DNA from: Rhynchonema sp. JSB1_4
Lineage: Eukaryota; Nematoda; Chromadorea; Monhysterida; Xyalidae
DNA: 64,000 nucleotides
Direction: 5' to 3'
NCBI GenBank assembly: GCA_030248065.1
Contig: JASAMV010003622.1
Span: forward strand, 37,990 to 101,989
The notes beneath the pieces are model-generated. The model ran no database searches. It was given only the letters and a program-made list of their open reading frames with translations, and was not told where the DNA came from. A program made the position numbers and the translations under genes. Positions 3,026 to 48,100 of the stretch are shown here, in pieces. Every line of letters starts with the position of its first letter. Position 1 is the stretch's first letter.

Positions 3026-3354
3026 AGTGGAACCTTCTTCGGAATATTTTCCGAATGAGCTCCAGTCTGGTCATTTTTTATGTCTGGGCGCTTCAATTCG
3101 AATAATTATCAAACGGGATCGCAGAGAACATCACAATATCACCGAAAGACTCTCAAATCTGGGCTAAGTAAACAAAAGCAAATGACATCACTGAGGTTCA
3201 TTAAGCGCCAGATCAAGACCCAGTGGATCTTGGTCCATTGGGCGATCTGTTATGTGTGATCACTCCAAGTTGTCCCAAAGCTTCAAAGTTCTTGGCGACC
3301 AAGGTTGCTCGAGAGGCCAACACGGTTGTGTTCGGCTGGAATGCTTACATCTTG

Positions 3355-7777: not shown

Positions 7778-9285
7778 TCAAATCCCAGCCATCTCCATAA
7801 TAACCGCACAAAGATGCTCTTTTTCCTCTTTCGGGTCCTCACACGCCAGTTCGCCAGATTTGAACCTCGCCAAAACCTCGTTTTTAGCCGCGACCACTTT
7901 ATCGATTTTCAGTTTATGCTCATCCGCTGATTTCAGCCCGGCCACCAGCTGAGCAATACATTCGCGCAATGTCAGGTCCAACTGATGTTTCACACTGGCG
8001 GCACATTGTTCACGACTGCGCTCCAACTGGCCTTGATCATCAGGCAACATTATTGGTGGGTGTAACGTTTCAATCCATTGCATTATGCCCGCACAATCAG
8101 GGTCATTGGTGTCAGTGAGAGTGCGACTGCAGTCGCGTTGCCAACAATCAGCCATGTTGGGTGTTTCGAGTCGTGCGTCCATACGATCGATCACATCTGA
8201 TGGCACTCGGTCGAATAATGGACGCCGATCGTTACGAAAGTGGGCGAGCTCACGTGACACTGGCAAATACAGCTGCAAGCCATGGGTAGATGTTTGCACT
8301 TGCGCACATTTGTGGTGCACCAGGTCATCGTCAGTATGCAACAAGGCTTGCTTCGTCCGTTTGATATGAAATTCTGGAGCTTGCAATTTGTCCATGTTTC
8401 CCAAAACCATTACATCATCGTCAGTTGCGAGTGTACAAGCGATCAATCAATCCATCCATTTGAAAAACAAGAAACAACTTTTACCAATGTGATGACTCAG
8501 CCATACCTGACAATAGACCGACTGCATACGAGCGCACAGTCTCCAATACACCTTTCGCATGCTGGCATAGTAGAAGTTGTCGTCGACGAGCAACAACAGC
8601 CGTGAAACATCAGCTGATCGTTGGTGATCGATGACAATGCGTTCCACTCTGTCAACAACAGTCAAACGATCGCTTTTCCACACATACGACGGGCATGACC
8701 AGTGCGCACGATCGGCTGCAGCAATGAAGCAGTTATTGATGTTCATTTTGTACTTTGCCATTTTTGTTACCCTGAGAGATAACGAACACCACGATGGTCA
8801 ATGTGCATGATATGGCCGACTTAAATTATGTCCGATATCAAGCTCGGCGATCGGTCCTACATTGGTCACGGACGTTTTGCGTTATGTCAAAAGTTTCGAT
8901 CAGCTAAAGTGCTGTCTCGGAACAACGCTTACGGCGGGTAGTGGGCGTAGTCATCAAGTAAAAACAAGACCTTCAATGCAAAAAGCTACGAGACCACGAC
9001 CGGACCGAACACCAAATTTCATAGTAATCGGCCAGCACGAAAACTTCGCTGTTTCGGTTGCACAGGGTTGAGACTCACCGATGACCAGGCCTGCCTATGT
9101 ATATCAAACTGTTGACTTAGTGACCCGAACACTGCCCGGCACGTACCCAACAACTCATCGTAACACACATGCTGTGCGGCCCACCCTGCCTCGTTGTTGT
9201 TGACATGTGCAACCAGTGCACGACACAATGTTGTCTTGCCTGATGCTGGAAGGCCGATCAACACGCACACAATGGGCGTCGACAT
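7778..9285 (-). CDS. PSTK: O-phosphoseryl-tRNA(Sec) kinase
   Basis: Phosphorylates Ser-tRNA(Sec), the intermediate converted to selenocysteinyl-tRNA by SepSecS, so it implies that this animal makes selenoproteins. Exon 1 (9285-9079) starts MSTPIVCVLIGLPASGKTTL with a textbook Walker A P-loop and then CYDELL. Exon 2 (about 8771 or 8752 to 8507) carries the family hallmark LLLLVDDNFYYASMRKVYW and ends VYCQ. Exon 3 (8272-7778) opens LYLPVSRELAHFRNDRR and contains VPSDVIDRMDARLETPN, then a helical C-terminus ending at 7778. Total length is about 316-322 aa against about 350 in vertebrates. The exon 1-exon 2 junction is ambiguous. The good GTGAGT donor at 9078 and the TCTCAG acceptor at 8772 are not phase-compatible; a GTCATC donor seven bases earlier, or a GCAAAG acceptor at 8753, would restore frame. 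Confidence 0.92.
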
Positions 9286-10126
9286 CGCACCTGCCGAAGA
9301 GAAGGGGCAAGGATTTTCGTTTCTTCTGTCCTGGAGTCCTGCATGAACTACACTGTGGTTATACAAAACTCGGCAATGCAATATATGCATTAGAATCATC
9401 AGATAAGGAGTCATTTGGGTCGTCCTTGCACAGAACATCAGCTAATATTCACAGACCAATGAAGCAGTGAGAAACTAACTCAACAAAATATATTTTATTC
9501 GTGAACAACGAGTGAACCACAAATGATATAATTATTATACGAAACAGAAAAACAGCAACAAACTGAAACATCAAACAAACGACAATAGCAACGGACCAAC
9601 AAAAAGAAACAAAACTGAATCCAGCAATAATCGAACAGAACAAGTTTCCGGTGCTCACAATGTCATGGTCACATGACTGTTCAGACTGACACACCATAGA
9701 TTCCCTGAAGACTGAGCAATCATTACGGAAGACAATTAAATCAACAGAAGCAGAGTATCTGGACGTGAATAATATAATTATTTAGCCAAAATAGTTATTA
9801 TACGGTGCAGAAAAACTCAAAAATGAAACATCCAACGAAACAGAACAACAACCGATGAACAAAAAGAAACAGCCTTGAAACCCGCACAACCGAACAGAAT
9901 AAATTTGTACTCAAACTGTGATTGGCACAATATCGATCAGACTGGCGCATCAGAAACATTCCCTGAGGACTGAGCAACTACAAGAGAAGGCCATTCAGCA
10001 GTAACATCAACAAATCGATTTCACACAGAACGAGAACAAAAATACGATCAACAAAAAAACGAACAAGAAAAGAACAAACACCAAAAAGCAAAAAAACAAA
10101 ACAAAACAGACTGGGGGACAGACGAG
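9286..10126. other. Spacer between F-box gene and PSTK, with internal duplication
   Basis: About 840 bases without a gene. Most of it is an imperfect tandem duplication (see the next entry) followed by A-rich sequence. Presumed PSTK promoter on the left and F-box gene 3' end on the right. Confidence 0.5.
9530..9995. repeat. Imperfect tandem duplication, two units of about 230 bp
   Basis: The units start near 9530 and 9793. Each begins ATTATACG, continues through ACAGAAAAAC, TGAAACATC, a run of CAACAAAAAGAAAC, CGAACAGAA and AGACTG, and ends with ATTCCCTGA-GACTGAGCAA. Both preserve the TGAAACATC octamer although the surrounding sequence has drifted. No coding potential. Confidence 0.65.
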
Positions 10127-15743: not shown

Positions 15744-18683
15744 TCAGCACACTTGCGTCATGTGCGTATCCATTGCATCTGCCTGTGAAACATCAGCCTG
15801 CAGCACCAGCTCAGCGCGACGTTTCTCCAGTTGGCGTCTCAGACGCTGCTCGCCCGTTCGCAGTAAATGTGCTGCAACGCAATGTGATGACATCCGGTAT
15901 GAAAGGTTCGCATATGCAGTTTCAAAAAAAGCGCCACAATAAACGTCCTTGACCTGGTCGACACAACAAAATATTCCGCCGATCTAGTGAAAATTCCATA
16001 CTATTTTCGAACAGTGATTATGATCCATGCTACTTATACAAACCGACAAGAACTCAAAGCACGAATTTACCAAAAGTGACATTATCCCGCAAGTCGGAGG
16101 AGAGTTCGTCAGACTTCAGCAGGCCTTCCGAATCAGGCAACAGCGACTCAATGACGGCAATCGAATCTGAATAGATCTGAATCTGAACATAGATCATCTT
16201 TGAAACATCCGGTGGGTAATCATAGCCAAGCGTAGCGCTTGTTGTAACGGGGAAACGTGGAATTTGTCAACTTCTTGGTCGTAATTTGTAATAGATTTGT
16301 ACCAGCGTCATTCTCCATTATTGGCACTGTGACGCAGATCGAGATAGTGTATGTAATGACATAGCACAAGATGACCAAAACATGCTTTCACACACCATAT
16401 TTCGCCAATTCGGTGACTGATCGATAGAACAATGTGTTAGCAGCAGCCTTCATTTGTTGAGCGCTGTCCGTCAAAGACGTCACCGCCAGCCAATCATCGT
16501 GCTGCACTGCACGGGACCAGATGCTTGAACGCAGACGCTCGAAGACTGTGAAACATCGGGTTCGTAAGGCACCACATACTTCATAAAATTGGTCACGCAT
16601 TTCCATAAAGAGTGCTAGATGCCATAACAGGAGGTAGGTGGACGAGTCACAAAGCCCCTAATCATGAAATATTGCATTATCCGGCAAAATATGCTCATTC
16701 CACCATCAACTGCAAGCCCAGCATTGCCAAAAACACGATTGACTATGTGCATGCTTCACCCTGTTATCATGTCCATTGGTGCTGATACCACTTGAACGTA
16801 CTCCGCTCCACATAAGCAAACAACAACTCCACGCCATCGTACATTCTTATTGCTTTTGCAAGTTCCTAATTCCGCTGCCTTATGCGTTGTTACAAACGCA
16901 AGCGAACGTCGATTTGAAACCGAAGCAGGCAACAAGCCCGCAGCTGACTTGTGTGACTGAAACCTTGGGAAACATTCGAAACGTGCTGTTAGCTTGTCAT
17001 GTGTTAAGCTTGCTGCCTGTGCCGATTTCGAACTGAACTTTGTCTGTGTCTGTAAAAACGCACTAGGCACCAGTGTTCGAACGGGATCCCGATCCCGATC
17101 CCGGGATCCCGGGCACTTTTTCTGATCCCGATCCCGTCATTTTGAAAAAGTCAATCCCGATCCCGCCCAAAAAAGTACCGGGATCGGGATTAAGTTTTTA
17201 GAACAAAAAGTAAAAAATTATGCAATCATAATTCGCCAAGCTGTTGTAAGGGCGCGTCAACGCAAACGCGGGCGCGGGTCAGAAAAATGCTCTTATATGT
17301 CCAACAACCGCCCCGCGTTTGCATGCCGCACTTGCGAGTCGCGGTTTGCGGGTGACTTGAAACATATGTTTGGCTGCAACACACAAAAATTAACCAATCC
17401 GCGTCCAGCCAACGTAGCAGACTGCCGTAGCAGAGCGCTGATTGGTTCATTTTTGTGTTTAATGGCTAAATAAATGTTTTGAATGACCCGCAAACCGCGA
17501 CCCGCAAGTGCGGCCGTGCAAACGCGCGGCGGTCATTGGACATAGAATTATTGCTGACCCGCGGCCCACAGTCGTGTTTGCGTGGCCGCGCCCCTAAGTG
17601 GTGCTCGACGGCTGATTCCAAGCGTGATGAAACCGCAAGCACCACCAATCGCGAACAAGTTGACATGGAACTGAACGATTACACAAAGTTACATCGAACG
17701 AAGGGACTCAGTTTCGAGGAAATGATGTCATGGTGGGCAACAAATGAGACAAAGTTTCCGCGACTGGCACGTCTAGCTTCCAAATATCTAAGCGCTCCGC
17801 TTACGAGCGTGCCTTCTGAACAGCTCTTTTCCAGTGCAGCTGATTTGTTTGATAACAAAAGATACTGCTTGAAACCAGAAAATGGTGAAATGCTTGTCTT
17901 TTTGTCAAAGGCTTTGCCATTGATCGACTACAATTATGATCTTTGAACTTATCCGTCATCAGCTATTCTCGATTTTCAAACGGCTTTAATCACTGTTCCG
18001 GGTGTTTATCCATGTGTGATAAACAGTGATGTGGTTGGTCCGAGCAAGAAAGCTAGCTAGCAGGAGGGGTCCGGCACAAGAAAGCTAGCTGGCTAGCCGG
18101 GTACCCCGATTTGGGGGGTATTGGTCCAGAAGTCAAAAACAGGGATTTAAAATTTGGCCAAAATTATGCTAAAATAAGCCTTAAAATGCGTATTTTTGTG
18201 CACGTGTGAGAAAATTTGAACGAATTTGACCATTTTGTCCCATAAAATGGTCATTTTGGCACTAAAATCAACACTTTTCTTACTTGATGACCGGAGCAAG
18301 AAAGCTAGCTAGCCAGTTTGGGGGGGGTATGGGTTTCGGAGCAAGAAAGCTACCTAGCAGTTGGGGGGGGTAATACCCCCATACCCCCCCCCCCAACCAC
18401 ATCACTGGTGATAAGCATGTTTCATGACCATGGTTGTCTGTGACATTAACGTGCATCTTATGCATAAAACGATAAAAACTACTGCCTTTGGACTATCTGG
18501 TCAATCCCGATCCCGGGATCCCGGGTTTTTAAAAACCGGGATCCCGATCCCGACATTTTCTTGATCCGAATCCCGATCCCGATCCCGGGATTAAAAATGA
18601 ATCCCGTTCGAACACTGCTAGGCACCGAAATTATAAACTTACTTAAATTGCAAACACTTTTGGGACTGGGTCTCCATGCGACC
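15744..18683 (-). CDS. Unidentified multi-exon gene
   Basis: I do not recognise the product. A possible first exon starts METQSQKCLQF at 18683 and stops at a GTAAGT donor, which would place the hAT element (17071-18617) inside intron 1. A clear exon at 16606-16390 contains RDQFYEVCGALRTRCFTVFE and SSIWSRAVQHDDWLAVTSLT, which looks alpha-helical. An exon near 16200-16085 holds DSIAVIESLLPDSEGLLKSD. The terminal exon (about 15872-15744) reads LLRTGEQRLRRQLEKRRAEL and ends DTHMTQVC with a TGA at 15744. The whole looks like a helical scaffold protein, perhaps a coiled-coil or helical-repeat subunit. Octamers occur in two exons (in CFTVF and in QADVSQ). Exon phases were not fully resolved; this could also be two genes. 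Confidence 0.4.
17665..17946 (+). pseudogene. hAT transposase C-terminal dimerisation domain fragment
   Basis: Ninety-three codons reading from MELNDYTKL to a stop at 17946. It contains the diagnostic hAT C-terminal pattern: W-W, FPRLARLASKYLSAPLTSVP, SEQLFSSAADLFDNKR, L-P-N and VFLSKA. Complete hAT transposases are several hundred residues with an N-terminal zinc finger and an RNase-H-like DDE core. Neither is present between the element's ends, so this is a relic rather than a working gene. Open frame continues upstream to about 17479 but without family features. Confidence 0.85.
18024..18407. mobile_element. hAT MITE family C nested in the hAT element
   Basis: 384 bp, ends CAGTGATGTGGTTGG and CCAACCACATCACTG, near-perfect TSD GTGATAAA/GTGATAAG. 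The interior has repeated GCAAGAAAGCTAGCTAGC words and a conserved AAAATGGTCATTTTGGCACT block. Related copies are at 50428-50803 (perfect TSD), 46261-46578, 47348-47587 (distant) and 63615-63686 (truncated). Confidence 0.88.
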
Positions 18684-18714: not shown

Positions 18715-21700
18715 TCAATCCTCCTCCAGCTCACTTGTCAACAACTGGTCCGGTAATTGTCTATCCAATCGGACCGTGCTGTTCAACGTCACATCCGATC
18801 CGCTTGGAGCGACAGGCAACATTTCAGCCAGAATCTCCAACGCCTGCAGCACACCGTCGACAGTGATCTCGCTCGCGTGACGTGTGTACAGCTGAAATAT
18901 TACACTCAATATTATTGTTGCTTTCAAGTAAAAAAATTGCAAAAATATAAAAAACCAACATCAATCAATTCTTCCGCGCTAAGAGCCGGCATTTCGGATA
19001 GGTTCGAGTAACCGGCTGCCTGAAAGATGAGCAATTTCAAATAAATTGACAATGTTTATTTTTCGCGGGCCCAACATCACCATTAAAATTGCTGTCTTAT
19101 GACAGACATCGGTGGCCGTGTGCGTGTAGTAAAAACTGTTGTCTCTCCATGTCACTCTTGACTAGGTTCGGTTCTTTCGATGGGAATCACCAAGATGTGA
19201 CATGACGAACCAATTCTACATTATGATACACCAAATCTGTGAAACATTTGTTGTCTCAGCCCAACCTGCACAAGCGCGTCCGGCAACTGTTGTTGTTTGT
19301 CCAACAGAAGCAACTGAACGTCGATCTTCGACAGGTTCGTGCGTGTGCTCTCACTCATTTCATCATCGGATGCACACAACGCTGCCAGTTTCGATAGACT
19401 CAACAGGTCCTGCAAGCAATTTCGTTCCGAATTTTATGAAGGATCGGCCGATGTTTCACAAAATCAGAGCATCCTTGTACCATTGGTACTGATACTCTGC
19501 CAAAAGATAAATGACCACTACGACTGACCGTAATTGTCCCACTTGGTCTTGTAACTGCGATTCTATCACTAAATTTCTGCATGGTTTTATGCGACATTGA
19601 GAGCAACAAAACAAACAAACCACTATGATTGACTGAAAGCAAACATTTGAAACCACACAGACTGCGAGGTAACCTTTTTCCTCGATGCCAATGCTGTCTG
19701 ATCCAGTCCCACTTTTGCCACGGTTTCGCTGGCCTGAAATTTGAATACAACTTTCTGTCCGCTTTAGAAAGTAAACGAACACAACGGAAGACCGATGCCT
19801 CTGAAGCGTGTAATCTTTCATAACACAATAAATCGGTTGATCTCAATCTGAAAGCATGGTTTTCCCGCTTTCCGATGTCTCACGTGCAAGTGCGTGTGTC
19901 ACCTTTATCACGTAATGCCGGATAAACTTCACAATAATATTGGTCACGAAGCTCACATAGAGGCTCTCTATGCTATACAGTTTGATAACGTGCATAAAAA
20001 CAAAAACAAAAACAGGTCATTAGCAGCGTTGGTGTTTCAGTTTACAAGCCTGTGACTAATTACTTAGGTATTCAAAGAAGAATAGTATCAGAAACTGCCA
20101 AAATCAGGCTGCATGATACGTGCCGTGCCGTCTGTCGTTGTGTCATGACATGACTCATAAGAATCACGAAGGTTGTTGCTCACACGATGTCACATGGGGC
20201 ATCGAGTCATCGAACTTTTAAAAAAACCTTGTCGTCAGTGAGGCATACTGTACATACGTATTGCAGGTATTGCGACTTCAAATCACGAGTTTAACAACAG
20301 AGTATTTGCGGAGTTTGCACATCAGCACCTCGCAACTTCGGAACCCCTTTCTTTCCATTACGATTTCTGGCAGCTAAAAACGCTGTCGAAACGTACAGCA
20401 CCCAACCGTCACTTAATACCTTGGTACTTCTATGATGGTCGTGTAAGACAATGTCAAAAGAAACGAAAAGTTGTGCGGGTGACTTGACGTCAAGGCAGTG
20501 TAAAAAAAGATAGCTCCTGTTGCTTGATATGTTGGGATAATTGGGCGAGCAAAAAAGGCGCTGCTGAGTGTGTGACTTCGTCGCTTTTTGAGGTATCGTC
20601 CCCCTTATTGACAACGTCGCACTTTTTGTCATGGTTGCGCGCGTTATATCGATATCGTCGCGCGTGGCCGGCATGTGCTATCTTCGGTGGGCATGTATTA
20701 GCCTACTGTACCTATACATTGTACGATACAATATAACACAAGGCAGACGCACACTGCCTACTTGGCTAAAGGCGTTTTGATGGCATCATTGGTACCTACA
20801 TATACATACATATATGCATAAGTATTGATATACCTACATCTTCTGCTGCCAACTGAGCTGATGCAAAATGTTTGCTTTCCAAAGTCTTCCGCTGGATGTT
20901 GACAGTGCACATTATATGTGTTACGCGCGACGTTGTCCATTTATGCGCGACCGAGTCTCAAGGAACGACGTTACACACATACACGCGACGATTTCACAAA
21001 CTGCGACGAAGTCGCCGGATTGCTCCACTGACTCACTCCCCTGGTCAGAATTTGCGAGGAAATGAGGCGGAATGCTTTACATGACCTCCCTTCATTAGTG
21101 GGCCGTAACACTGAGCCTGTGTGGCAGTAGCACAATAAAAAAAAGCTACCATATAACCGTGAATGGACATTATTGCTGCTCGGACAGGCCAGTACAATTG
21201 CTGAGCGCAAGGTGCGTCGTCTCGAAATTTAAGAATAGCTCCAGAAAACACAACGAAAGCAAAGTTGCTTGACTTGGTCATGACGAACATCGCACTCTCA
21301 CTGCTGTGTCACAAGCATCACACTCAGCTAATCACAAAAAAGCTTACACATTTCCTGAAAAACTGATTTCACCAAATCAGCAATGCTCAAATGCGCAATA
21401 TCGCTTGCGCTCGTGTGCGCCATCTGGTATCCACAGATCTGTGACGCTAAAATCGTCTGTCGCTGGCATCATTGGAAATTCAAACCAACGTAAGTGATCA
21501 ATATGTTACGATGACGGTTGGCGTCCAAACTTGATGATCAGTTCGGATTCGCCTTGGTTGCAGACCGATATCTGTACTACGGAGGATGTACACTGCAACC
21601 ACGACTTTTAAGTTCTTTCAGATGTTACGAACAGCGAGCCTCGCGGGTCAGACAAGGTGCCGACAGGAAGAACTCCACAACATCCGATCTCAGAAAGATT

Positions 21701-24700
21701 TTCGTGACAACTTCGTGGCCGGGATCACCATCGAAAGCCAGCAAGACGCGAATCCAAAAGCAGAAGCGAAGAGTTGTCGATTCCAGAACAACGACAACAG
21801 TAAAACCAGTCCTGACCACAACAATCGTCAAAAGAGTCCCACATCAAGACAAGGAGCTTCGGTTCCGAGACTGTTGGTTTTCGGCCGCCCAATGCATCAT
21901 GATATCACAGTTGACACACGACAGTGTGATTGTGCGTTCTTAAAGGGCTCGGGACATAACCGAAGGAAGGGTAGCAGGACATATTGTTACATACCGTTGG
22001 AAAGCATTCCGACAGCCTACGTCACGCACAAATTTTAAGCTCCTTGGAGACTCGCTATCTCTTGGTAGAGGGACTTTTCGTTCCAGAAAAAACTGAATTT
22101 TTGCCCAAATTGGAACGACCGGTGCAGAAACCCCAAACGAGTTGAAGGTCAACTCACACGTGGATAGGATTACAACAGCTTCGGAATAACTTACCATCAC
22201 AACTTCAGTCGCTCAAACTATTGCTTCACACGGTGAGGGTGCGAAACGCTCCGAAAATCGGCCTTATTTTTCGATAACACAAGTTTGTCCCTAAATTTTG
22301 AGATCACGCTTAGCGCTGTGGAAATAAGAATGCAATGGGAAAATAGAGCATCGTCGAAAGTACCAGAAAATAAGGTTTTTAAATTTTTTAACTCATGGCT
22401 AGCTCCGTGACAGGCCTAAAAATCCATTAAATTGCCGCTAAATTAGGTGCTTACATTCATCGCCAGAATTTTGACACACAAAGGCCACAGATTGTATCGG
22501 ATTCGAAGCAAAAAATTGAGAGAAACGTCTGGCTTAACAACCTATCACGGTCCGAAGACCTCAAGGTCTACAAATCTCTCGGGGCAGCCATACTAACCTG
22601 AATATGATATTCAGCTATAAATGCTTACTGTTAACAGCTATTGTAAATGTGACAGCACCATACAATGTGTCCCGGGAGTAGCTTTCGAACGATATATAAC
22701 AAGCCCCAATAAATTCTTACGCTTAAGGGTAGAGGCTAAAAAATTGCTTTTTTGACGATTCTGGAATGAACCGTCACGTTACCGTGTGCGATTTCGGAAT
22801 TTTGACCGTTTCTTGTCCATAGTAAGAGATAGTATGTGCATGTTATATATCGTTCGATAGCTACTTTAAAGCTACATCGGCTGGTGCTATCAAATGTGCA
22901 ATAGTCGTTAACAGTAACGAATTATAGCCAAATATCTTATTCAGGTTGGCATGGCTGCAGCAGCCGCTCCGTGGAGTTTGAAGTTTTGAAACTCGTCTAG
23001 ATTGTTGGACTGTGCGTTTATTTGACTTTCTCGTTTCCAATGCAATGCAATACGTGGCTTATTTACATCTCATTTCCGTCAATGAATGCAACTATGTAAT
23101 TTAGGGGCAATTTTTAGGTCTTTTTCGGCCTGTCACGCCGCTATCTAAGTGTTTCCAAATTTAAAAACCTTATTTTCTGGTACTTTGGGAAACGCTCTAT
23201 TTTTCTATTGCACTTTCATTTCTGCAGTACAAAGCGCGGCCTCAAAATTTAGAGACAAACTTGTGTTTTCGAAAAATGTGGCCGATTTTTGGAGCATTTC
23301 GCACCCTCACCGAGTGAAGCAATGCTTTCAGCGACTGAAGTTCTCATGATAAGTTATCCAGAAGCTGTTGTAATCCTATCCACGTGTTACTTGACTTTCA
23401 ACTCATTTGGGGTTTCTGCACCAGTCGTTTCAAGTTGTGAAAAAATCTACTTTTTTCTGGAACGAAAAGTCGCTCTACCAAGAGATAGCGAATCTCTAAG
23501 GAGCTTAACATTTGTGCGTGATATATGCTGTCACAGAGCTTTCCAACGATGTATAACACTGCGCTCTGCTGCCCTTCCTTCGGTTGTGTCCCGAGCCCTT
23601 TAAGCTGCGAATCACCAAACTATTGTTATTCAAGGCCATAGGGTATGCCCCTCGTCTCTGTGTACAGAACAAAATGACATTACTGTGTAAGTGGCAAGCA
23701 AAAAAGCACTTTTCAGTGTCAGTTGTGATTCTCATGTGAACAGCTTTCAATGGTCAATCACTGATTGTTTTGATGGGCACGCTTCTCGCCACTTTTGTGA
23801 TTGTGAACCGTGAAATTGTTGTTAACCCTCAGCTAATGTTCTGACTGTATTGTATATAGCTCCGAACCTATCGCATAAAGCGTTTGCTTGATAAATGTTT
23901 GAACTGCATTCGGTACTAATGTAGAAGTAGCCAAGATGTGTCATTCATCGCAGTCTTCGGCGTATGAGAAGCAAAGATGCGACCAGACCTCTGGTCCAAT
24001 GAGGACAAAATATCATCTTGATCTCTTGCTTTGATCTCCCCCCTAGATTTGGGTTGCGGAATTTATTTGAAAATGGGGTCTTGGGTGTAATCTAGGTTCG
24101 AAACACGGATTTGACTCAAGTTTGGCACAGATATATAAAGAATCTCGGGTGGTTTTTTTGGAAAAGGGAGATTTTCAGCCCACTAAAGAATAAGAATGGA
24201 ATTTCGTCCTGCTTCTGGCCCAGGTCCGGAGGCGAGTATGACGTGTGGCGAGTATCATCAAGTCAATCACCCTGAATAAACAGCAATTAAAGTGGACGTC
24301 CTGACGTCATGGCAGTGTCGTCCGTCAATTAGTCGACCGTAAAATTGAGCGCAAATTGGACTATCATGATAAAACGGCCAAGGCCATTACTGATGCTTGG
24401 ATTACTAAGCACAAATGCTAAGTACATGACGCACCGTCACTGATTTAGCTCTAAAATATCCATAAAACAAAGGTTGGTAGCCGACTCAGTTTTCTTAGCA
24501 ACGCACTCAACTCGATATCCTGATCTTTGTCAAAAATATATAATATAATATGCAATATAATACGCAAATATATAAATAACCAAACAATCTAATAATGTTC
24601 AAATGCGCAGTATTGCTTGCGTTTGCGTGCGCCATCTTGTATCCGAAGATCTGCCCCGCAAAAATCGTCTGTCTCTGGCGAAATTGGAAACGCAAGCCAA

Positions 24701-27700
24701 CGTGAGTTTCCACCATCTGAGAACACGAGCAGTATCAATCATATTTGGCGACCGGGTCACATTATTTTTTTTACTATTTTTGCTTTTGGGACACTTCGAG
24801 ATTACTGGTGTCATCAGGGTAGCAGTTGTTCTCATACATCTGGCTGAGCAACAGCCTTTATCGCGTCTAGCTTGTGTAGTGTCACATCAGCAAATCTCAA
24901 AATACTGTACCTATACAACACAAGGTCACGTGACCCGATCCGATCCGATCACCAGGTTTACCGGGATCCATATCATTTCATCCTGGCATATGAACAGAAA
25001 CATTCAAAAATTTTCAGATGCTACGAACAACTGGCCTCGCAAGTCCGACAAGATCCGAAACTGGCTGACAAAACACTCTCCAAGACATTCGCTCTTAGAA
25101 AGATTCTCGTGACGACAACGGAGCCTGGGTCGCCATCAAAAACCAGCAACACACGAATCCAGAAGTCGAAGAAACATGTGGAGCCCACAGCAACAACAGT
25201 CAAACCAATCCTGACCACAACAATGGTCAAAAGAGACACAAATAAAAGAGAGGAGCTTCAGTTCCGAGACTGTTGGTTTTCGCCGGCTCATTGCCTCATG
25301 ATATCACAATTGACACACGACAGTGTGATAGTGCGTTCTTGAGTTGAACACCTATGGTTGTTGTCCTATAGCCATAAGGCGTGCCCCTCGTCTCCATATA
25401 AAAAACAAAATGATACGTACACCTATGTACATGGATTAGCATACCCAAGCACATCTGCGAAGATTCGAACACAAGAGCGTCTGCACCAGGTCTGAGTCAT
25501 AAAATAGTGGCTGGTTTAAAATTATATGGTTCTTACGCCAGGTGGAACGCTTTCAATTACTCAGTACCTGCTGACTATTTCAATAAACATGTTTCTTTTA
25601 GCCATATTTGCGACCCAGGTATATATTGTACATGTGCGAGTGAGATCTGCTGTCATGTTCAACGAATGTTGTAGTGATGAACGGCGATATAGATAATAGT
25701 GCTTCAACAAATCTGATTGCAGACCTGACAATAAATGTTGCTTGTAATTGCGATTGGCAATGACTTTCGTTGTGGGACCTCTGTGTGAATGAAACAAAAC
25801 AGCAAGATATTTCCACCGACCGCTTCATGCTACAGGCTAACCGAAAAAGAAGAGAAACAGTTTCGTGGGCTTCGTGATTGTACGGAAATTTTCGGAAAAA
25901 TTTCCAAATTTTTCACAAAAAACAAGGAAAATCGCGAGGTCAGTTTCTCAAATCGTGTAAAAACTCCATTTTTTATGTTTTGTGTCGACTTGCCCAGCAT
26001 GTCTTTTCCTCATGAAGCAATTTTAGACCTTTTTTAGACATTTTGCCCATGTACCCCATTTCAACAGGCGACCTTGAAAAATATCGAAAAAATGGGTTTT
26101 TCCAAACAAGCGGTTTTTCTACCAAATATTTTTTTCCGGAAAAAATGCAACTATACCTTGTATTATTTTTACTATTATTATCATTATTTACCATCATTAG
26201 TTTATCTCATACTGGGAATACGCAGCACAAACATGAACGATCACTTGATGTGCGCATTGCAGCTCTGGTTTGTCCACCGGCTGCCCAAGTATCTGTCCGT
26301 CAAACAGTATGCCCGACGGGACTCGAACCTGTGACCTCAGGGGCACAACAGCGCTCCCCCACCTGAGCTACATGCACACTTGGCTATTTCTGAAACTTTT
26401 CAAGGCAGACCGTGCACCACACACTACTCCGAATCGAAGCCGATCACTTCTGATCCAAGCTGAATTTCAACCAAAAACGTTTCGACTGGTTATTTTTTGA
26501 AACATCTGCTGGCAATTTTTGCAAATTTGTGCTGCAAAGTTTTGTAGGCTTTTATTTCAAGGTTAGCAGACCACACCAACCCCAACACCAGTTTTCAGAA
26601 TTCAAAGAAATGAGAGGTGGAACTTATTTACCGGAAAATCACCGTTGATCAGCACACGCATGTCTTGCCAATATTGTGCACGTTCAGCAAGAAAACGTTT
26701 TCTCCAGTTTCTTTGTGTATTTTGTGCATCAATTTTTTCATGTTGTTTTTCGGTGAATCATCAACATGGTTTGATTTCAGAATCCATCCGCCAGCCAAAC
26801 GAAGATTGTTGGCAGCAAAAGAAGGCTTCATTAACTCATGCACCGTGTTTGAGTTTGCAATGTCAACTGAAGCGAAATGCTTTAGATAACCTCTTCAATG
26901 GTAGACTGTGGATGAAGCTGCTACCATAAAAAGATGTGTACGTGACACTGATACTAATTATAACTCTAATGACCCTAACGTTAGGTAAGCCAATACTGCT
27001 GGACAGAAAAAATCCGGTCAGTTCTGTTTTTGTAAGCATCGCACTCAACTCGAAAACCTGACATTTTTTCTGCACACAAAAGTAAAGTGATTCCACGATG
27101 TTTAAATGTGCAGCATTGGCTGCACTCATGTGCGCTATCTGGTATCCACATGACAGTGAAGCTAAAGTTGTCTGTCGGTGGCGGCATTGGAGACTCACCA
27201 CTAAGTAAGTTTTCATTTTCACAATGCGATTACGCAAGCTACGATGGATAGAGCAGGACGGACTTGGTCGCTTTTTGAATTGACGATATTGGAAGATTTT
27301 TTTACCAATGCCATCTATTTCGACCGGCGTAAAATCTGGTGGCGTAACAAAATGACAAAACATAATTTAAAAAACGTGGGAAAGACAGGTACAATACTTT
27401 GCTTCATGCGTTTTGTCTGACAGACGATAGACAAACAAAACTTCCATGCCTGTTCAGATGCTACGAACAGCTAGCCTCGCGAGTCAGACCAGATCAGAAA
27501 GCGAACGACCGAAAACTCGCCAAAACATTCGATCTGAGGAAGATTCTCGTGTCAAGTTCGGGTTCCGGGAAATCTTCTAAAACCAACAACCCTCGAATTC
27601 AGAAGCAGCAGCAAAAAATCCCGGATCTGACCACAACAATCAAGCCAGTACTGACAACAACAAATGCCAAAAGACTCCCATATCAAGACACGGAGCTTCG

Positions 27701-30700
27701 GTTCCGAGACTGTTGGTTTTCGGCTGCCCAATGCATCATGATATCACAATTGACACACGACAGTGTGATTGTACGTTCTTGAGTTCAACACTATTGTTAT
27801 TCCATGATCATCGTGTATTGTTTATTGTTCCAGCCATAGCTCTGTATGATTAACCTGGTCCCAATGTGTGTGCAAAACGAGATAATATTTTTGTTCGTGG
27901 CACAAAGTGATCAAATTGACAAAACATGTTTAAATTTGTGTATACTCTGACAATTCTTTTGGGAGAAACTTTTCAAACGCGTTGCCTGATCCGTAAAGCG
28001 CATGATGCGTGCACTGGCTATAGCGGTCACGTGACTTCTGCAGCCAGTGCACGCATAACGAGCTTTACGGATCAGGCAACGCGGATGAAAAGTTTCTCCC
28101 AAAAGAATTGCCAGAGTATACATATTGTATATAACGTATACTGTGTTATTATTTTACAATAAAAACGACGATTTTGCTGTCGTTGACAGCCAATGTTGAC
28201 TTCCACGTTGAAAGTCTGTCTGAATGAACAAAAGAGAAAGCACCAAAATTATTGCGCAAACCGATTCACACTGCGTCGTTTTGAATTGATGCGCGAACAG
28301 CAGCTCTAGTTTGTCACCACTTTTGGCTGCCAGATCGACCCACCAAACAGTGTTACCAACCAGTGGTGTCGTTGGGGGGAAGGGGGTTACCCCCCTAGTA
28401 TCCGGTATCCGGTATCTTGATTTTTTCACACAGGGGTATCTGGTATCCTGACTTTTCGTCCAAGGGTATGCTACCCTAAATTTTTTCCGAAAACCGTAAA
28501 ATCGCCCATTTTACCTCCAAAATGCTCAAAATCGCTTGCTGGCGCAAGCATAACCCCGGAAATGACCTTTTTTGCGCTTCCAACACCAATTTTTATCAAT
28601 TTTCCTCTAAAAAATTGACCTTTTTTAACAACTGGGTATCCGAGATTTTTTATTTTGGGGGCAACCCCCCTGGCATCCGAGATTTTTCATTTTGGGTATC
28701 CGGTATCTGAAAATTTTGGATTTTGGGTATCCGGTATCCTGACTTTTTGATTTCCCAACGACACCACTGTTACCAACGGGACTCGAACCTACCACTACCA
28801 CCTTAGAGATGCAGAACAGAGCGCAAGCAAACAAACCTTTCACGAAGCCCGTGCACACACATACAAGACCTAAACCACAATCGACCCTTATTTTGACCTG
28901 GAAATGCTTCGCATCCCCACATGCGAAACACCTGCGGGCACGTCGTTTCAATTTTTGAAACGTCTGAAAGAAACCCATGCCACACACACAGATTCTTAGG
29001 TGAACCGGTTATTTATAATCCAAACTGAATTTGACCCAACCATGTTTAGATTCGTCATTTTCAAACATCACCTGGCAAGCGCCGTTATTTTTTGAAACAT
29101 CTATCAGCAGATTGTTGATTCAGAGCTAGCAGACAACCCCAACATCAATTTTCAGACAGAGATGAGATTCGGTGCAAAATCGCCGCTCATCAGGATTGTG
29201 TTGCCAAAAATATTGAACATATTCTGTGAGAAAAAGGTTTTCTCTAGTTTCTTTGCACAGACTTTCTTGTATCTCAGACAAATTTTAATTGCCGTTTCTA
29301 AGGTATGATGATCAACGTTGCTTGAAATCAACACCGATGCTACCATCAGTCAAGCGACAATAATTAGCGCGCAAAAGAGGCTTCGTTAACTCAGTTTGTA
29401 CTTCTTCTGCTGCACTTCGTTCACTTCACCGCAGTGTTGTGTCAAGTTTGCAATGTCAACTGAAGCGTAACGGTACACATGACCTGCCCTCATTAGTAGT
29501 AGGGTGCGGGATTTGGGTGGGTGCCGACACCCAAACACAAGCACCTACACTTTGAAAAGACCCGACGCCCAAACACAAAGTCGAAAACCCAAACGCCCGA
29601 CACCCAAACACTTCATTATTGAGAGAGAGAAAAATTTTAGTTGGGCAAAAACGTCAAAGAATTATGCTTTTTACACATGTTTTTTGCTAATGTTAGGCAG
29701 AATCGTACTGTTTTCGATAGTTTCGCCGAAGGTGAACCTAAAATTCATTTAAAGGGCGCAGCGCTCGATTTTTGAAAAAATTAGGTAATTAGAAAGAACG
29801 CCACTTTGCCCAAGAAAAAAAACGCCACTTCGTCGCTTTAAGCCCAAATTTAATTGTAGATTACGATATCTCACGCGCGGAGCGCGCGATTTTTGGATTG
29901 CTGAAGAGTTGTTTTCCAGATTTTCGAACTGGAAAAAATGAATTGCGTTGTGAAAACACACGCTTCCTGAAATTCTAAAACCCAAAACCGCCCGACACCC
30001 AAGCACCGCGGAAAAACCCAAACACCCGACACCTATACCTGCCGCACCCTAATCAGTAGCCCGTAACACTGGATGGGCCTGACGATACGTTACCATCACC
30101 ACAAGCAGATGTTTACGCGTGACACGCACTACCCAATAAGCCAACGTTTCTAAAGTCCATGCTAACAGCAGAACCCTCCAGTCTGATTTGTTTTCCTAAC
30201 ATCGCACTCGTCTACCGTAACCTGCCTGAATTTTTTCACAAAAAAACTGTCAATCACTGCACTCCACAATGTTCAAATGTGCAGCATTGGCGGCACTCAT
30301 GTGCGCTACCTGGTGTCCACGTAACAGGGAGGCTGAGGCTAAAGTTGTCTGTCGATGGCATTGGAAATTCACGGTCACGCTGAAGTAAGTTTTCACCCTG
30401 CGATTACGAACGCTAAGAGGGATGGATCAAATTTGACTTGGTCGCTTTTTCAATTGACGATATTTTAAGATTTTTTTATCAATCCCACCTATTTCGACAC
30501 ACGCAAAAGTTGGTGGCATAACAAAATCAGAAAACGTAACTCAAAATGGCATAACAAAATCACAAAACGTAACTCAAAATGGCATAACGAAAAATCCCGA
30601 AAAGCAAAAATCCCGAAATATAAAAAGGCGTAGAAATGGACCAAATCTTTTTGTCAGAAGTTGGCATTCATGTAGTTGGTGCTCAGGCTTGCATTCAGGG

Positions 30701-33700
30701 TTAGGCTTAGGCTTAGGCTGCCAGCCAGGAAGACCTGTTCATACGAAGGAAACATCAATAAAAATACACATGCTCAGGCTTTATTTCAGGCTTAGGCTGC
30801 CAGCCAGGAAGACTTGTCCACGTAAAGGAACTATCCACAAAAATACAACGCCCAGGCCTTCATTCAGGGTTAGGCTTAGGCTTAGGCTGCCAGCCAGGAA
30901 GACATGACCAAACGAGAATTTCAATATCTTGAGCCCCAACTGATCCATTGCCCAAATTATAATCTCCAACTGCATGAATACCCCTTTCTGCACCTTAAAC
31001 TTAGTATTTTTCCTCAATTTCATTTTTCGGGATTTTTACTTTTCGGGATTTTTTCGGGATTTTTATTTTTCGGGATTTTTTTCCGGAATTTTCGACCCCA
31101 CCCATAACAAAATCACAAAACGTAAGTCAAAAACGTAATGTGAGAAAGACAGGTCACATCCTCTGCTTCATGCGTTTTGTCCAACAGACGTTAGACAAGC
31201 AAAATTTCCATGCCTATTCAGATGCTACGAACAGCTGGCCTCGCGAGTCAGGCTAGATCAGAAAGCGAACGACCGAAAACTCGCCAAAACATTCGATCTG
31301 AGGAAGATTCTCGTGACAAGTTCGGGTTCCGGGAAATCTTCTAAAACCAACAACCCTCGAATTCAGAAGCAGCAGCAAAAAATCCCGCATCTGACCACAA
31401 CAATCAAGCCAGTACTGACAACAACAAATGCCAAAAGACTCCCATATCAAGACACGGAGCTTCGGTTCCGAGACTGTTGGTTTTCGGCTGCCCAATGCAT
31501 CATGATATCACAATTGACACACGACAGTGTGATTGTACGTTCTTGAGTTGAACACTATTGTTATTCCATGATCATGGTGTATTGTTTATTGTTCTAGCTA
31601 TAGCTCTGTATGGTTGACCCGACACTGTATGTTACTATGTTGCAATCATCCGTAACGATTTTGTGTGACTTCCACGTTGAAAGTCTGTTTGAATGAACAA
31701 ACAATATTGCGCATACTCGGTCACCAAATTTTTTCTCTAGTTTCTGTGTACGTCATTTCTGTATCTCAGACAAAGTTTTCTGTTTATGAGGTACATCATC
31801 AACGTTGCATGACATCAACACCGATGATAGGGTCGGTCAAGCGAATTAGCGCGCAAAACAGGCTTCGTTAACTCAGTTACATAGTTCTTCTTCTTCTGCT
31901 GCCTTTCGTTCACTTCACCACAGTGAGAGCTTGCAATATTAACTGATGCGAAATGCTTCACATGCCTTGCCCTCATCAGTGGACCGCAACATTGTACGAT
32001 CACCACAAAAAGATGTTCACCTTTACGTGATACTAAGAACTCAACGTTGGTTACCTCCATGCCAACAGAAAAATCTCGTGCCTGATCCGTTTTCATCGCA
32101 CTGATATTTTTCTATACAAACAAAAATCAATCACTGAATACACCAATGTACAAATGTGCAGTATTGGCTGCACTCACGTGCGCTATCTGGTATACGCCAA
32201 AGTTGTCTGTCGATGGCGGCGTTGGAAACTGACGCCAATTTTTTATACTGATGCCTCTGATTTCGACCGAAGTTTGATGGCAAAACCAAATCACATGAAT
32301 GTGATTAAAAAACGTGACAGGAGACAAACACGTCCAATGTTATCTAATCCTAACCTACGCACATGCATTATGCATATTATCCAACAGACCTCAGAAGAAA
32401 ACCATCAAGCCTGTTCAGATGCTACGAACGAAATAGACGCCATGCGAGGCGGAAGATTCTCGCCACAAGTTTGGGATCTGGACAATCCCATAAAACTGGC
32501 AACGCGCTGCTTCGAAAAAACAGAAGCAAAGCATAAATAACAATGGTGAAAACTGTCCCACATCAAGACAAGCAGCTTCGGTTCCGAGACGGTTGGTTTT
32601 GGACTGCCGCTCAATGCATCATGATAACACAATTGACACACGACAGTGTGTGATTGTACGTTCTTGAGTTGAACACCGACTATTGTTATTTCACAATGAT
32701 CGGGTATCGTTTAGTATATTAGCGAAGCGATCTGTACTTTTGTAGTTCACACTGTTGTTCGTGACCTCAAGTGATCTTATCAACAAACCATATTTAGATT
32801 TTTGTAGGTAGGTTACGTGTAGGTAGTGTCATGCCACTATTCGCAATAAACCATGCCGATTTTGTATGACTTGCATCTTACGACAGTCTGATTTAAAGAA
32901 CAACACAAACCATCAAAATTATTCCACCGACCACTTTATATTTTGCCGCATGATCTGATGACCGCGACCGGTTTGTCACCACTTTGGGCTGAAACCTCCC
33001 CCAACCCCCCTCCCGCCCCCGGGCGACCCACCACATAGTGTTCCCGATAGGGCTCGAACCTGCGACATTTTGAAACATCTGCTGGCACGCACTGCACTTT
33101 GTTCCAATATTTGGCTGCACATGGCAGACTACCCAACATTGATTGTCAAACGCGCATTGTCAAACGCGCATTAGAAAAAACTGAGGTGAGATTTTCCCGA
33201 AAAACCGCCGCTGGCACTGATCAGACCAGACCTGTGTTGCCAATGCTCATTCGGTCACAAAACATTCTCCAGGTTTTTTGTACGTATGTCTGGTATCTCA
33301 GACAATGTTTTCTTGTTTTTAAGGTACATCATCAATGTTGCATGATATCAGCACCGATGTTACCGTCGGTCATGCGTTGCTAATTATCGCACAAAACAGG
33401 CTTCGTTAACTCGGTTCGTTCTTCTTCTTCCAATGCACTTCGTTTGCAATGTCAACTGAAGCGAAATGGTTCATCATATGACCTGGCCTAATTAGTGGAC
33501 GCAACACTGAGTCTGAACTGAATGAGACTGTGACCATCATCATGAAAACATGTTTTCCTCTACGTGATACTAATTATAAAGCGCTAATGAAGCAAACATT
33601 GGTTAACTCCAATCCCAAAGGTAAAACTACCGTCTGCTCCGTTTTCATCGCACTCAACTCGACGAGCTGACATTTTTCCATACATACAAAGTCAGTCACT

Positions 33701-36700
33701 AAATATGTACAATACAACAATGTTCAAATGTGCAGTGTTGGCTGCATTCATGTGCGCTATCTGGTATCCACAAATCTGCAATGCCAAAGTTGTCTGTCGA
33801 TGGCGGCGTTGGAAACTCACGCCAAGGTATGCGACTCACTTATGCGACTAGATTTTTTTATACCGATGCCTCCTATTTCGACCAACGAAAATTTGGTGGC
33901 AAAACCAAATCACAAAAAAAGTGATTCAAACACGTGGTAGGAAACGGACAAGCACGTCCAACGTTATCCAAATCCTATGTACCCACAAAACAGTCAAACC
34001 TCTTCAGGTGCTACGAACTACTCGCCACGCGAGTCAAACAAGATCCAAAACCAGGTGACAACATATTCGATCTGAAAAAGATTCTCGCTACAAGTTCGGG
34101 GTCTGGACAATCTACTAAAACTGGCAACGCGCTGCGCCGAAAACGGAAGCAAAAAATCCCGGATCTGACCACAACAGCTAAGCCAGTACTGACAACAACA
34201 AATGCCAAAAGACTCCCATATCAAGACACGGAGCTTCGGTTCCGAGACTGTTGGTTTTCGGCTGCCCAATGCATCATGATATCACAATTGACACACGACA
34301 GTGTGATTGTACGTTCTTGAGTTGAACACTATTGTTATTGCATAATCCTCGCGTATTTTTTAGTGTACAAGTCTAAATCGTATGTATAGTCCACTCTAGC
34401 CTCTAGTGTACAAAACGAAGTGATATTTTTGTTCGTGCACCAGGCGATCTGAACTTACATTTGTTTATGTATATGCTACTAGTTGCAATAAACCACTATG
34501 ACAGTCTTGCATGACAAACACGTTGACAGTCCGTTTGAATGAACAAAAGCGAAAACGGCAAAATCCTTCCACCGACCGCGTCATATTGTCCCGTTCTGAC
34601 GCGATGTGCGAACAACAGCTCTGGCGTGTCGTGTTTGTTCAACAGTTCAGCTTGTTCATCCAACGAAGACTCGGCAAAGAATCGTTGGTATTTGCCTGAA
34701 AAGAAGCCATTGAATAATGATTCAGACATGTCACCATAAAGACACTTCACATTCCATTACAACTTAACCATTCACTAAACACCATTCAGCAGCGGCATTA
34801 GCAAATCCATCGCCCGCATAGCGTCGTCGCCACGTTTTCATCTGTTCCAAACGATGCTGCGTCCGCTGCACATTGTCTGGCTCTATATAATCGTCGTGAA
34901 ACATCAGCTCAGCAATGTCAAGCAATGAATGGAAGGCCTGTGCAGAAACTGGACTATTCAGAAACCAGCAACAGAAAATGTGGTGATCGTCAAAAATCCT
35001 AAAAAATCCCGAAACGAAAAATCCCGAAAAACATATCGAAAAGCGAAAATCCCGAAAAATCTCGAAAAAAAGGCACTAAATTTTGTCGGAAGCTGGCATT
35101 CATGTAGTTGGTCGTCAGGGTTAGGCTTAGGCTGCCAGTCAGGAAGACCTGTCCACGTGAGAGAGATATCCATAAAAATACAGCGCCTCAGGCTTTCATT
35201 CAGGGTCAGGCGTAGGCTGCCAGACAGGAAGGCAAGACCAGACGAGAAGATCAAGAAATTGAGCCCCAACTGATCCAGTGCCCAAATGACAAATTATGGG
35301 CTCCAACTACATGAATACCCTTTTGGCACAATAAACTTTACATTTTTCCTTTATTTCATTTTTCGGGATTTTTATTTTCCGGGATTTTTTCGGGTTTTTC
35401 TCGGGATTGTCGACCCCACTCAAAAATGTTTCATACGGGACAGATAATGCAGCAGCTTTTTCGCCATTTTTGATCCACTGTAATTTAGGTAAATCAACAA
35501 ATCATATGACAAAGCTCGTTCCCGGTGCTCGAAAATCAACAAAATCGGCGTTTTGCTGTCCCAAACTTTTTGTGTGCGTCTAGGTCTTTGAAATCAAATC
35601 AAATCTTTTTTCAATTTCCCCGCACCGCACATCAAACAATACAAAAAGCGCTCATAACAGACGTTCACAAAAAAACATTTCAGCGTACAGGGAAACATAA
35701 AAACCATTTTGCATACCTTAGCGCGTTCGGCCACTTCAATCGCTCGATCGTACTCTCGGATTTTCACCAACGCCTTCAGCACATGATCACGCACATGCAA
35801 CATTCGGTCAACGCATGCCGTGCCTGATCAAGCAACGTGATATCATGGATAATTTGAGCATGAAATACAACCGCACGTTGGTGCATGAGCTAAACTGCCA
35901 GAACGCACTACAACAATAACAGTCAATACTAACGCTTCGAAGAATAGGAAAACAGAATTTCGGATGGTTCAGAACAAATACAGTACCAAGTACACCGTTT
36001 GTAGCGCTGCTTCTCGTAGCCACCAGACCAATCAAATAAAACAATAACGATAAATAAAGTCAAATAGCCCACACTATCCCTCTCCAACCGACCAGCCGCA
36101 TCCAATTGTGTCAACACGATTCTGACCAGTGCGCACGCATCAGCCACCAACTGTGCCCGATTCTGTCTCGGCAATGCATCTGCGTAATCACACACCGCTG
36201 TCGTGCACACATCGAACTGGAAAGGTCTTTGAGTTTAATATTTTGTTTGCATATTTTTTGGGTGGTGCCATGCTACTGTGACACGAAACGAAAAACTAAC
36301 TGATTCCAATGCGGCTCCTGCTTGAGGAATGTTTTGTGAAAATGGTACGGCAACCGTCGAAATGCGGCTGAACATAACAATAAATGCGCAAGCACCTGTT
36401 TTAAGAGCGGTTCCACGAGCGTTTCGCTGGTCAACCAATTAGCACTTGGTTGCGCGTCAAGAAGTCGACTTTTGCCCGAGCGTTGCTCCTCCACCTGAGG
36501 GAAAAAACTTGGAATGTTTCCAAAAATAGTAAGACAACTGGAAATGGAACAGTTCACAAAACCACCACCAACCGATAACAAAGCCGCCAGCAGAATTCTA
36601 TTATTGGCGACCATATTCTCAGCCAGCTCAATCACATCCGAGCTCGATAACGACAGTTTGACTTCAGTTGTTTGGCCTTTCTTGCTCTTGCCCGTCCGTG

Positions 36701-45108: not shown

Positions 45109-48100
45109 TTACACGCACCTTCTGCCCCTCAGCTGATGTTCGCGACTAGTCAACGGCACGTAGATGACACCCATTAGTTCCTGTTTATGTACATTGCCCT
45201 GTTGGTCCTTGTCGACTTGCATAAATGTCTGTCCGCCGCCCTCCGGCCCGACCGGGATCACCATTCGGCCGCCTTTGGCTAGTTGATCGATGAGCTGCAA
45301 CATACCTGGTGTCGTATCCAACTTGATGGTCGGAAAGGATCAAATCTGCTTTCTCGCGTGAGGATTGACCCAGGCAATCCCCTTACGATCGGATTATCAA
45401 GCTCGATGTTAGTCAGTGTCAGAAATTGAGAATGATTTGGGACTGCAGCCTGTCTAACAACAAAATGTATGAAACTTGTGTCGTGTTATTATTGTTGACG
45501 TTGCAAGACAGTAAAACAAAGCAAACAAATAACCGAACAAAAAACAGAAAGAAACTTCAGTTCAAAGTAACGTACTGGCTGTGGTATTTGTGGCGCAGCA
45601 GCACCGACATGAATTGCGTTGAAGGGAGCGTCACTGGCAAAACCTTGTCTGCCGTCACCCGTGACCAGTTTCAATCGATCAGATTGCAGTAATTCACCAT
45701 TATCTAACAAAAGGAATAGCCATTGATAGATTTTCTGTAGAATAATCGCGTACTGAACTGAACGCGGCCATCAAATAAGGTGATCGTATCGGATTTGTGT
45801 CGAATTGGTCACGTGAATTTTGTGGAAAGGATTTCTGATTTACTGCTATGCATGCCACTAAGGTTCTCATGTTCCCTTCCACGCAGAACGTCATGTAATA
45901 ACCGATTCCGATAACCGATTTGACACAGGCCAAAAAAAACAACTCACGTTTCTGAACATTTTTTATCGATTGTTGCGTCAGTTCGTCGATGTGTTCGATG
46001 CCCACAACTTTTCCGGTGTCGCCAACCTGAAGCAGTTTCCACACCAAAAATAAATTCGTTGCAACAATTGTTGATTTTCATTTTTTTTTCAACTAACCAT
46101 ATAAGCCATGCATGCAGCCAGATATCCGGATCCCGAGCCAACGTCGAGCGCACGCATGCCCGGCTTCATTTGCTCTTTGAGTAATTCCAACGCCGAGGCG
46201 TGCTCAAAAGGACAAAGACAAAAATTGGATCGCAGAACGGAAGGCAAGCACATACAAAAACCGGCGGAAGAAAGCTAGCTAGCTAGCCGGGTACCCCGAT
46301 TTGAGGGGTCAATACCACGGATATAAAAATTGGTCGAAATTATGCCTAAATTTGCCTTAAAATGCGTGTTTTTGTGCATGTGTGAACAAATTTGAGCGAA
46401 TTTGACCATTTTGGCCCATAAAATGGTCATTTTGGCACTAAAATCAACACTTTTTTTGACTTGATGACCGGAGCAAGAAAGCTAGCTAGCCAGTTTGGAA
46501 GTATGGGTTTGGGAGCAAGAAAGCTACCCTGCACTTGGGGGTATTACCCTCCCCCCAACTACTGTATGTATATCACTGGTTCTGACGTGACATAAATCAA
46601 ACATCAATTATAAAGCATCAACCAACCATGTGTGGTGCGCTGATGGTGGCGCCATAACCGATTCCTTGTGGTGAATCCATGTACGGACTGTTGGGCGAGT
46701 AATCGGCGCGGTCAACTTTGAGCATCGCTTCTTTGACACGATCCGATTTATAAACGCCGTGTTCTGCAAAACATGCCAACCAATCACCGCAGTCAACAAA
46801 TCAATCGCATAACAAACCCTGTTCGTACTGTAACTTTAAGGTGTTGGCGCGCTTGAAAGACAGAATGATTCAAGCAACACTATTTGGTCAGCGGATTGTC
46901 GCACATACATACAAAGTTGCACAGAAAGACATCTGAAGATCGCGCGAAAATTTGCCTATGCGCCCAACGAACAGACGAACCGCACGCCACGACAAGCAAA
47001 CCCTTTATTTTACCGCATTGTCTCATGCTCCAATACAAGCTCCAACGTGAACGCCTATTTCAACTCGGTTGAAAAAATACAAAGGGATACTCTAATATAA
47101 GGGCCTATTTTGAACAGTTTCGTAAAAATACAAGGGCAAATTGGAGAAAAAAGCTCACTTACTAAGGTGCACAAAATCCGCTTTCAATCAGCGGTTCTTA
47201 GTTTCAGAACAGGGAGTTGCTCAACTTGAAATAAAGTAACGTTTGATTGGAACAATTGGGTTGCGTGTTGCAATAATTTTTAGTTTAACGGCAACTTCTG
47301 CTACGAAGTTACAACCAACAAGCGAAAAAATGCAGGAGCCCACTCCAGTGATGTAGTTGGTCAGGTGCCTCGAGCTAGTTAGCCAGGGGGTCAGGCCGGC
47401 CACCTCGAGCTAGTTACCTTTTACCTAGCAAATGATGGGGATATTGGAAAAATATGCTAAAAATAACATTTTTGGCCCTTTTCGGTAGATCGAGCAAGCT
47501 AGCAGGAGGTTTGGGGGCATGGAGATTTCATAGATCGAGCCAGATGTGCCTAGCTGGGGAACCCGACCCCAAGCTAGGTACATCACTCAACTGCTCTAAT
47601 ATAAGGACATGCTCCATACGAAGACCTATTTGAATTAATGTGAAAAAATGTAAGGACCCCCTGGCATAAACTGGCGAATGAACAAAAACCGTTTTGTTTC
47701 ACGAAAGAAACCGAAAAAACCGGGTCCATCTGGGATGTAAAAACCGAAAGAAAACCAATAAACTTCAGCCTCCGGAAAACACAGGTCTTCTTTTCACGAA
47801 ATTTTCCAATTTTTGACAAAAGTTGGGGAAAACTTTTCAGAACAACTTTGGCAGCGCCCGGACGATGTCAATGTGGCTTGTTTTACCAATTTTGGTCATA
47901 TTCAGCATTAAAAACACCCATAGACACCCACACAACTGTGGTGTCAAATGCCTTATTTGGGCTCCCCTATCCTTATGCACTGCGGTTCCCTATTGGTCTT
48001 TTTCGTTTATTTAAGAAACATGAAAAACCGTTTTTGCGCCAGTATACTCTGGCATATTGGAGGCAACCCGGTAGTGCGACCTGATCATACACTACCATAC

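Follow-up and report, generated by a model that had tools for sequence, protein, structure and literature searches.

The 64,000-nucleotide stretch of contig JASAMV010003622.1 from Rhynchonema sp. JSB1_4 that was analyzed here (the window) carries, between 21.38 and 34.32 kb on its plus strand, a tandem array of six units, five of which are intact two-exon genes, whereas the fifth in order is a pseudogene. Judged from sequence, the array is probably a derived, locally expanded branch of the nematode allatostatin-C (AST-C)-like neuropeptide-like proteins (NLPs), i.e., a set of prohormones that would release a cyclic C-terminal peptide for a receptor of the somatostatin (SST)/AST-C group. The array is real, looks functional, and is best viewed as an expanded form of a peptide family already known from nematodes; its two unusual parts are a pair of added cysteines near the N-terminus and a tail that is conserved.

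The original prediction had described six two-exon genes. The repeated two-exon units on the plus strand were recovered, but the unit at 32146-32667 (g5) is a pseudogene: its leader is short and out of frame, the usual splice donor is missing, exon 2 contains an in-frame stop, the first ring cysteine is replaced by glycine (DGWF), and the frame shifts late in exon 2; therefore, five genes of the array are intact and one is broken. The intact genes encode proteins of 142 (g1), 143 (g2), 143 (g3), 146 (g4), and 139 (g6) residues. All exons lie on the plus strand, at 21383..21489 and 21622..21943 (g1), 24595..24701 and 25018..25342 (g2), 27098..27204 and 27458..27782 (g3), 30269..30384 and 31222..31546 (g4), and 33720..33826 and 34008..34320 (g6); the g5 remnants are located at 32146..32235 (end approximate) for exon 1, with frame and donor lost, and at 32419..32667 for exon 2. 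Exon 1 of g1 encodes the leader, KIVCRWHHWKFKP. In g4, the leader region is longer and the C..C spacing is increased by one residue, and the protein encoded by exon 2 is 97% identical to that of g3. As had been proposed, the five intact genes possess phase-2 GT..AG introns (132, 316, 253, 837, and 181 bases, respectively), which lead from CRW..W to CYE.., and a KR dibasic site precedes the C-terminal block in all five. The linker is basic and Thr-rich, and the signal peptide is represented by a hydrophobic leader as judged from the translation. Every intact gene ends in a block of two cysteines separated by six residues (C-x6-C) plus a 15-residue tail; the six-residue ring, located in the C-terminal region of the precursor and predicted to close, reads CWFSAAQC or CWFSPAHC. 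The supposedly uniform block was exact in four of the five intact copies (RFRDCWFSAAQC), the exception being g2 (24595-25342), which has QFRDCWFSPAHC instead. The C-terminus of g1 is RFRDCWFSAAQCIMISQLTHDSVIVRS and that of g2, with FSP kept, is QFRDCWFSPAHCLMISQLTHDSVIVRS, each read up to the stop; the predicted peptides of g3, g4, and g6 are identical. When the window was searched for an 18-base core of the block with up to 3 mismatches, 6 matches were obtained (5 exact and 1 with one mismatch), compared to 0.10 expected from shuffles.

Relatives were sought in the same genome, using an assembly of 203.9 Mb in 5,747 contigs. With exon 2 of g3 as a query, all six window units were returned, together with C3090 at 56% identity and, faintly, C3874 (E 0.026), and an exon-1 query taken to E 10 found the six window units and C3090 and nothing else. 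C3090 is an intact array-type copy outside the window; it shares the four cysteines and likewise has a phase-2 intron. The C3874 protein in turn detected C4518 (E 4e-04). Both are plainer precursors with the motif RNCWFSPVQC, a single phase-2 intron following the leader, and C-termini RIRNCWFSPVQCLLFTKKHFREV (C3874) and AKRIRNCWFSPVQCLLKERAYRS (C4518). A third one, C3855, displays KNCFFTPVQC and likewise a phase-2 intron after the leader, its phase having been determined by hand. One locus each was found for C3874 and C4518, and C3855 is an inverted pair, its closely similar, nlp-88-like members at 5480 (minus strand) and 14639 (plus strand) lying approximately 9 kb apart, as the result of either duplication or an assembly effect. 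A degenerate core pattern, which was built after the family had been seen, gave 12 matches in 204 Mb, 10 of them in array or plainer genes including the C3855 pair, and none for the reversed control. Pattern matches in C3578, which passes through a stop, and in C3823, which translates as NCYFCAGHC, were dropped, as were weak own-genome matches in C465 and C4223 after inspection.

The two additional N-terminal cysteines noted in the original prediction (CRWxxW..C) are indeed present in the array precursors and absent from the mature parts of C3874, C4518, and C3855, which contain the ring cysteines only. The tail beyond the second cysteine, also regarded as distinctive, is less exclusive: the 15 residues of the array are strongly conserved, but tails likewise occur in C4518 (9 residues), C3874 (11 residues), and C3855 (17 residues, or 3 if cleaved at RRRR).

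According to McKay et al. 2022 (PMC8764417), the nematode AST-C-like genes nlp-88 to nlp-91 share the motif RNCFF(S/T)P(V/A)QC, and nlp-92 to -96 carry (K/R)NC(F/Y)F. The plainer paralogues C3874, C4518, and C3855 fit the former motif at 9 of 10 places, with 0 of 200,000 shuffles as good; g1, g2, and g3 fit at 7 of 10 places, equalled by 1, 1, and 3 of 200,000 shuffles, respectively, and C3090 at 6 of 10, equalled by 115 of 200,000. The scoring covered g1, g2, and g3, the decapeptide of the latter being shared by g4 and g6. In a profile-to-profile comparison, the three plainer proteins of this genome, assigned to the nlp-88 type by motif only, matched the six array-type exon-2 proteins at 95.5% (E 1.6e-08, 17 columns). 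On these motif fits and the profile match to the plainer genes, the array is best regarded as a branch derived from within the AST-C-like family of nematodes. The idea of an AST-C-related, lineage-specific expansion has thus gained support from intermediate paralogues in the worm's own genome and from the published nematode motif.

The ring and the 15-residue tail, i.e., the last 29 residues, are under strong purifying selection. When C3090 was compared with the five window genes one by one, nonsynonymous divergence (dN) in this part was 0.05-0.10 and synonymous divergence (dS) 1.2-1.7, the latter being rough because it rests on 19 synonymous sites, compared to dN 0.40-0.48 and dS 0.87-1.11 for the remainder of the protein. 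In the C3090/g1 alignment, 13 of 14 ring-part residues and 13 of 15 tail residues are identical. One could regard the array as a decaying tandem repeat of little function, given that one of the six window units is a pseudogene and that exon 2 is nearly identical in g3 and g4; yet the low dN was obtained in all five comparisons, and five frames are intact with GT..AG splice sites, which renders decay very improbable. Synonymous changes are depleted toward the 3′ end of some array pairs. Specifically, in comparisons for which pairs are non-independent and counts were rounded, the last 29 codons and the remaining codons differed at 0/19 versus 25/77 synonymous sites for g3-g6 (Fisher p 0.0025), 0/19 versus 25.7/76 for g4-g6 (Fisher p 0.0013), and 3/19 versus 35.5/76 for g1-g6 (Fisher p 0.018); p values were 0.06-0.19 for the other four of the seven array pairs tested, and 0.45 and 1 for two pairs that included C3090. 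Local gene conversion at the 3′ end of the array copies is likely, though not proven. The presence of several nearly identical copies suggests that dose, or separate control of expression, was selected for, with 3′ ends partly homogenized.

Several observations weigh against the placement in the AST-C-like family. As described in PMC7536072, SST/AST-C proper is characterized by the core motif FxP and by an N-terminally located phase-0 intron, and protostome AST-C is one cyclic peptide with a six-residue ring in the C-terminal region of its precursor. The FxP core is lost in four of the five intact copies, FSP being present in g2 only and FSA in g1, g3, g4, and g6, as also in C3090. No phase-0 N-terminal intron was found in the coding models of g1 to g4, g6, C3090, C3874, C4518, and C3855, which contain phase-2 introns only. 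Since FxP is mostly lost and the phase-0 intron is lacking, the array was filed as a derived nematode AST-C-like variant and not as AST-C proper. Furthermore, C3090 has no KR immediately before its block, and with C3874 as the query, E values were no better than 0.009-0.024 for the five intact window genes and 0.053 for C3090. Homologue searches with g3, C3874, and C3855 yielded none in a protein database whose nematode coverage was not established; Pfam gave no match for g1, g2, g3, g6, and C3874, NCBIfam none for g6 and C4518, and the PDB nothing useful for g6. The structure predicted for exon 2 (7 sequences) had a mean predicted local distance difference test value of 51.8 and was not used.

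The missing protein-database and Pfam matches would also suit an uncut secreted effector or defense protein with four cysteines, the C-terminal C-x6-C of which merely resembles AST-C. Four cysteines in the mature part, the basic Thr-rich linker, and a tandem expansion of the kind familiar from many secreted effectors agree with such a protein. We nevertheless consider it unlikely, as the constraint is concentrated in the final 29 residues, the rest being far less affected, the block is C-terminal and follows KR in all five intact window copies, the phase-2 intron is common to plainer precursors with only ring cysteines in the mature part, and the profiles of array and plainer proteins match.

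The cuticle collagen N-terminal domain, which is typical of nematodes, gave 57 matches in the assembly, identifying the genome as that of a nematode; the arthropod AST-C frame of the original prediction was therefore abandoned. No copy of the 22-base spliced leader SL1 was found in the whole genome at one mismatch. Lack of SL1 would be unexpected for most nematodes outside early branches, so that this result hints at an early-branching nematode, or else reflects a limit of the search. For a nematode, the array could still represent a parasite's mimic of host AST-C or somatostatin, with RFR-x-C resembling the insect peptide as given in the original prediction and with near-identical copies. This origin, raised there as a mimic of the hormone, is scarcely credible: the nearest peptides that were detected, RIRNCWFSPVQC, belong to the worm itself, and FxP, which is common to fly and C. 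elegans AST-C-type peptides (PMC7536072), is lost in four of the five copies.

For the nematode AST-C-like prohormones thus favored, the leader would be removed and a convertase would cut at KR; the last two cysteines would form the ring, and a peptide of approximately 35 residues would be secreted. The N-terminal cysteine pair probably forms a loop of its own within a separate fragment. By analogy, we infer KR cleavage and an SST/AST-C-group receptor for the ring peptide, which may act on a Gi/o-coupled member of this group in the way that C. elegans NLP-99 acts on NPR-16. A human SSTR2 query gave 21 receptor matches in the worm's genome, with C592 as the best. The top PDB match of this candidate receptor is somatostatin receptor 2, but melanin-concentrating hormone receptor 1 matches equally well, a further point against the proposed assignment; its relatives are C4452 (clear) and C2424 (weaker). 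A more daring proposal, which we hold to be doubtful, is that the two-ring prohormone constitutes a new nematode hormone class, in which ring and tail would form one ligand, the tail would serve as a second receptor contact replacing the lost FxP, and dose would be set by a homogenizing array in the intron of a housekeeping gene.

The array is probably nested in an intron of NUP133, as had been stated in the original prediction. Minus-strand pieces at 18.7-19.4 kb (18718..19409) resemble the C-terminal part of NUP133 when aligned pairwise with a checked human NUP133 sequence (38% over 61 columns, E 7e-07; junctions by eye). The exon upstream of the proposed intron, near 34.57 kb, was located by eye and not matched to NUP133. 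If the putative donor near 34,572 is joined to a putative acceptor near 19,410, the array lies in a single 15-kb minus-strand intron (19410..34572, ends by eye). Pfam returned nothing for the piece at 19224-19433, and Pfam and PDB searches with pieces upstream of the proposed intron gave no nucleoporin. Within the array, an element of 1,656 bases (21944..23599, strand unassigned; 21940-23603 including the TTAA copies) is flanked by two copies of TTAA and has inverted repeats of 493 bases (84%). The g1 stop codon falls within the left TTAA, and beyond the right one the sequence again resembles, by eye, the 3′ flank of the other genes. A stretch of 96 bases at the end of this element has a 98% match downstream of the C3874 gene. 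Runs of TTAGGC-like units are present at 30700-30876 within a dispersed repeat. Outside the array, the window contains a protein-L-isoaspartate O-methyltransferase gene (45112-46835, minus strand; two pieces matching Pfam PCMT at E 2.6e-11 and 1.3e-11), a hAT transposase dimerization domain (17470-17946, plus strand; E 4.9e-18), and pieces of an ankyrin-repeat gene (1725-3070, minus strand). The region at 7778-9441 (minus strand) may correspond to KTI12 or to a tRNA kinase related to it, with a weak KTI12 match (E 0.00088, below the cut-off) adjoining a P-loop piece best matched by AAA_16 (E 5.1e-05, below the cut-off).

Nematode AST-C-like peptides are a known family, on which we found little functional work in the literature; a text search did not find the peptides in printed form, and no report of such an array was seen at the level of titles and abstract openings. 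In the array branch, a second cysteine pair was gained, a long tail is about as conserved as the ring, and copies multiplied. It thereby provides a natural experiment on which features beyond the ring a somatostatin-type ligand requires, and on why a worm would retain five near-identical copies of one hormone.

Set beside known systems, the array shares with nlp-88 to nlp-91 (PMC8764417), a known nematode family with several paralogues, the leader, R-x-C-x-F-[ST]-x-[VA]-Q-C, and six residues between the cysteines. It differs from their published motif by D for N, W for F, and A for P in four of the five copies, and features in addition the CRWxxW..C loop cysteine pair, the conserved 15-residue tail, and the six tandem units. 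C. elegans NLP-99 is described in PMC13082328 (name from PMC9881375) as the SST/AST-C orthologue; it has the C-x6-C arrangement and activates NPR-16, a Gi/o-coupled receptor. Its ring, GDGYGWNDCEFSPLSCLL (disulfide 9-16), has the same C-x6-C spacing and an FSP core as in C3874 and C4518, whereas its flanks differ from those of the array and the synthetic peptide ends two residues past the ring; no array is mentioned for NLP-99 in the sections of PMC13082328 that were consulted. The third system is the plainer paralogues C3874, C4518, and C3855 of the same genome, which, like the array, combine a leader, a phase-2 intron, and a C-terminal ring peptide, but unlike it have ring cysteines only in the mature part, retain FxP, and carry different tails.

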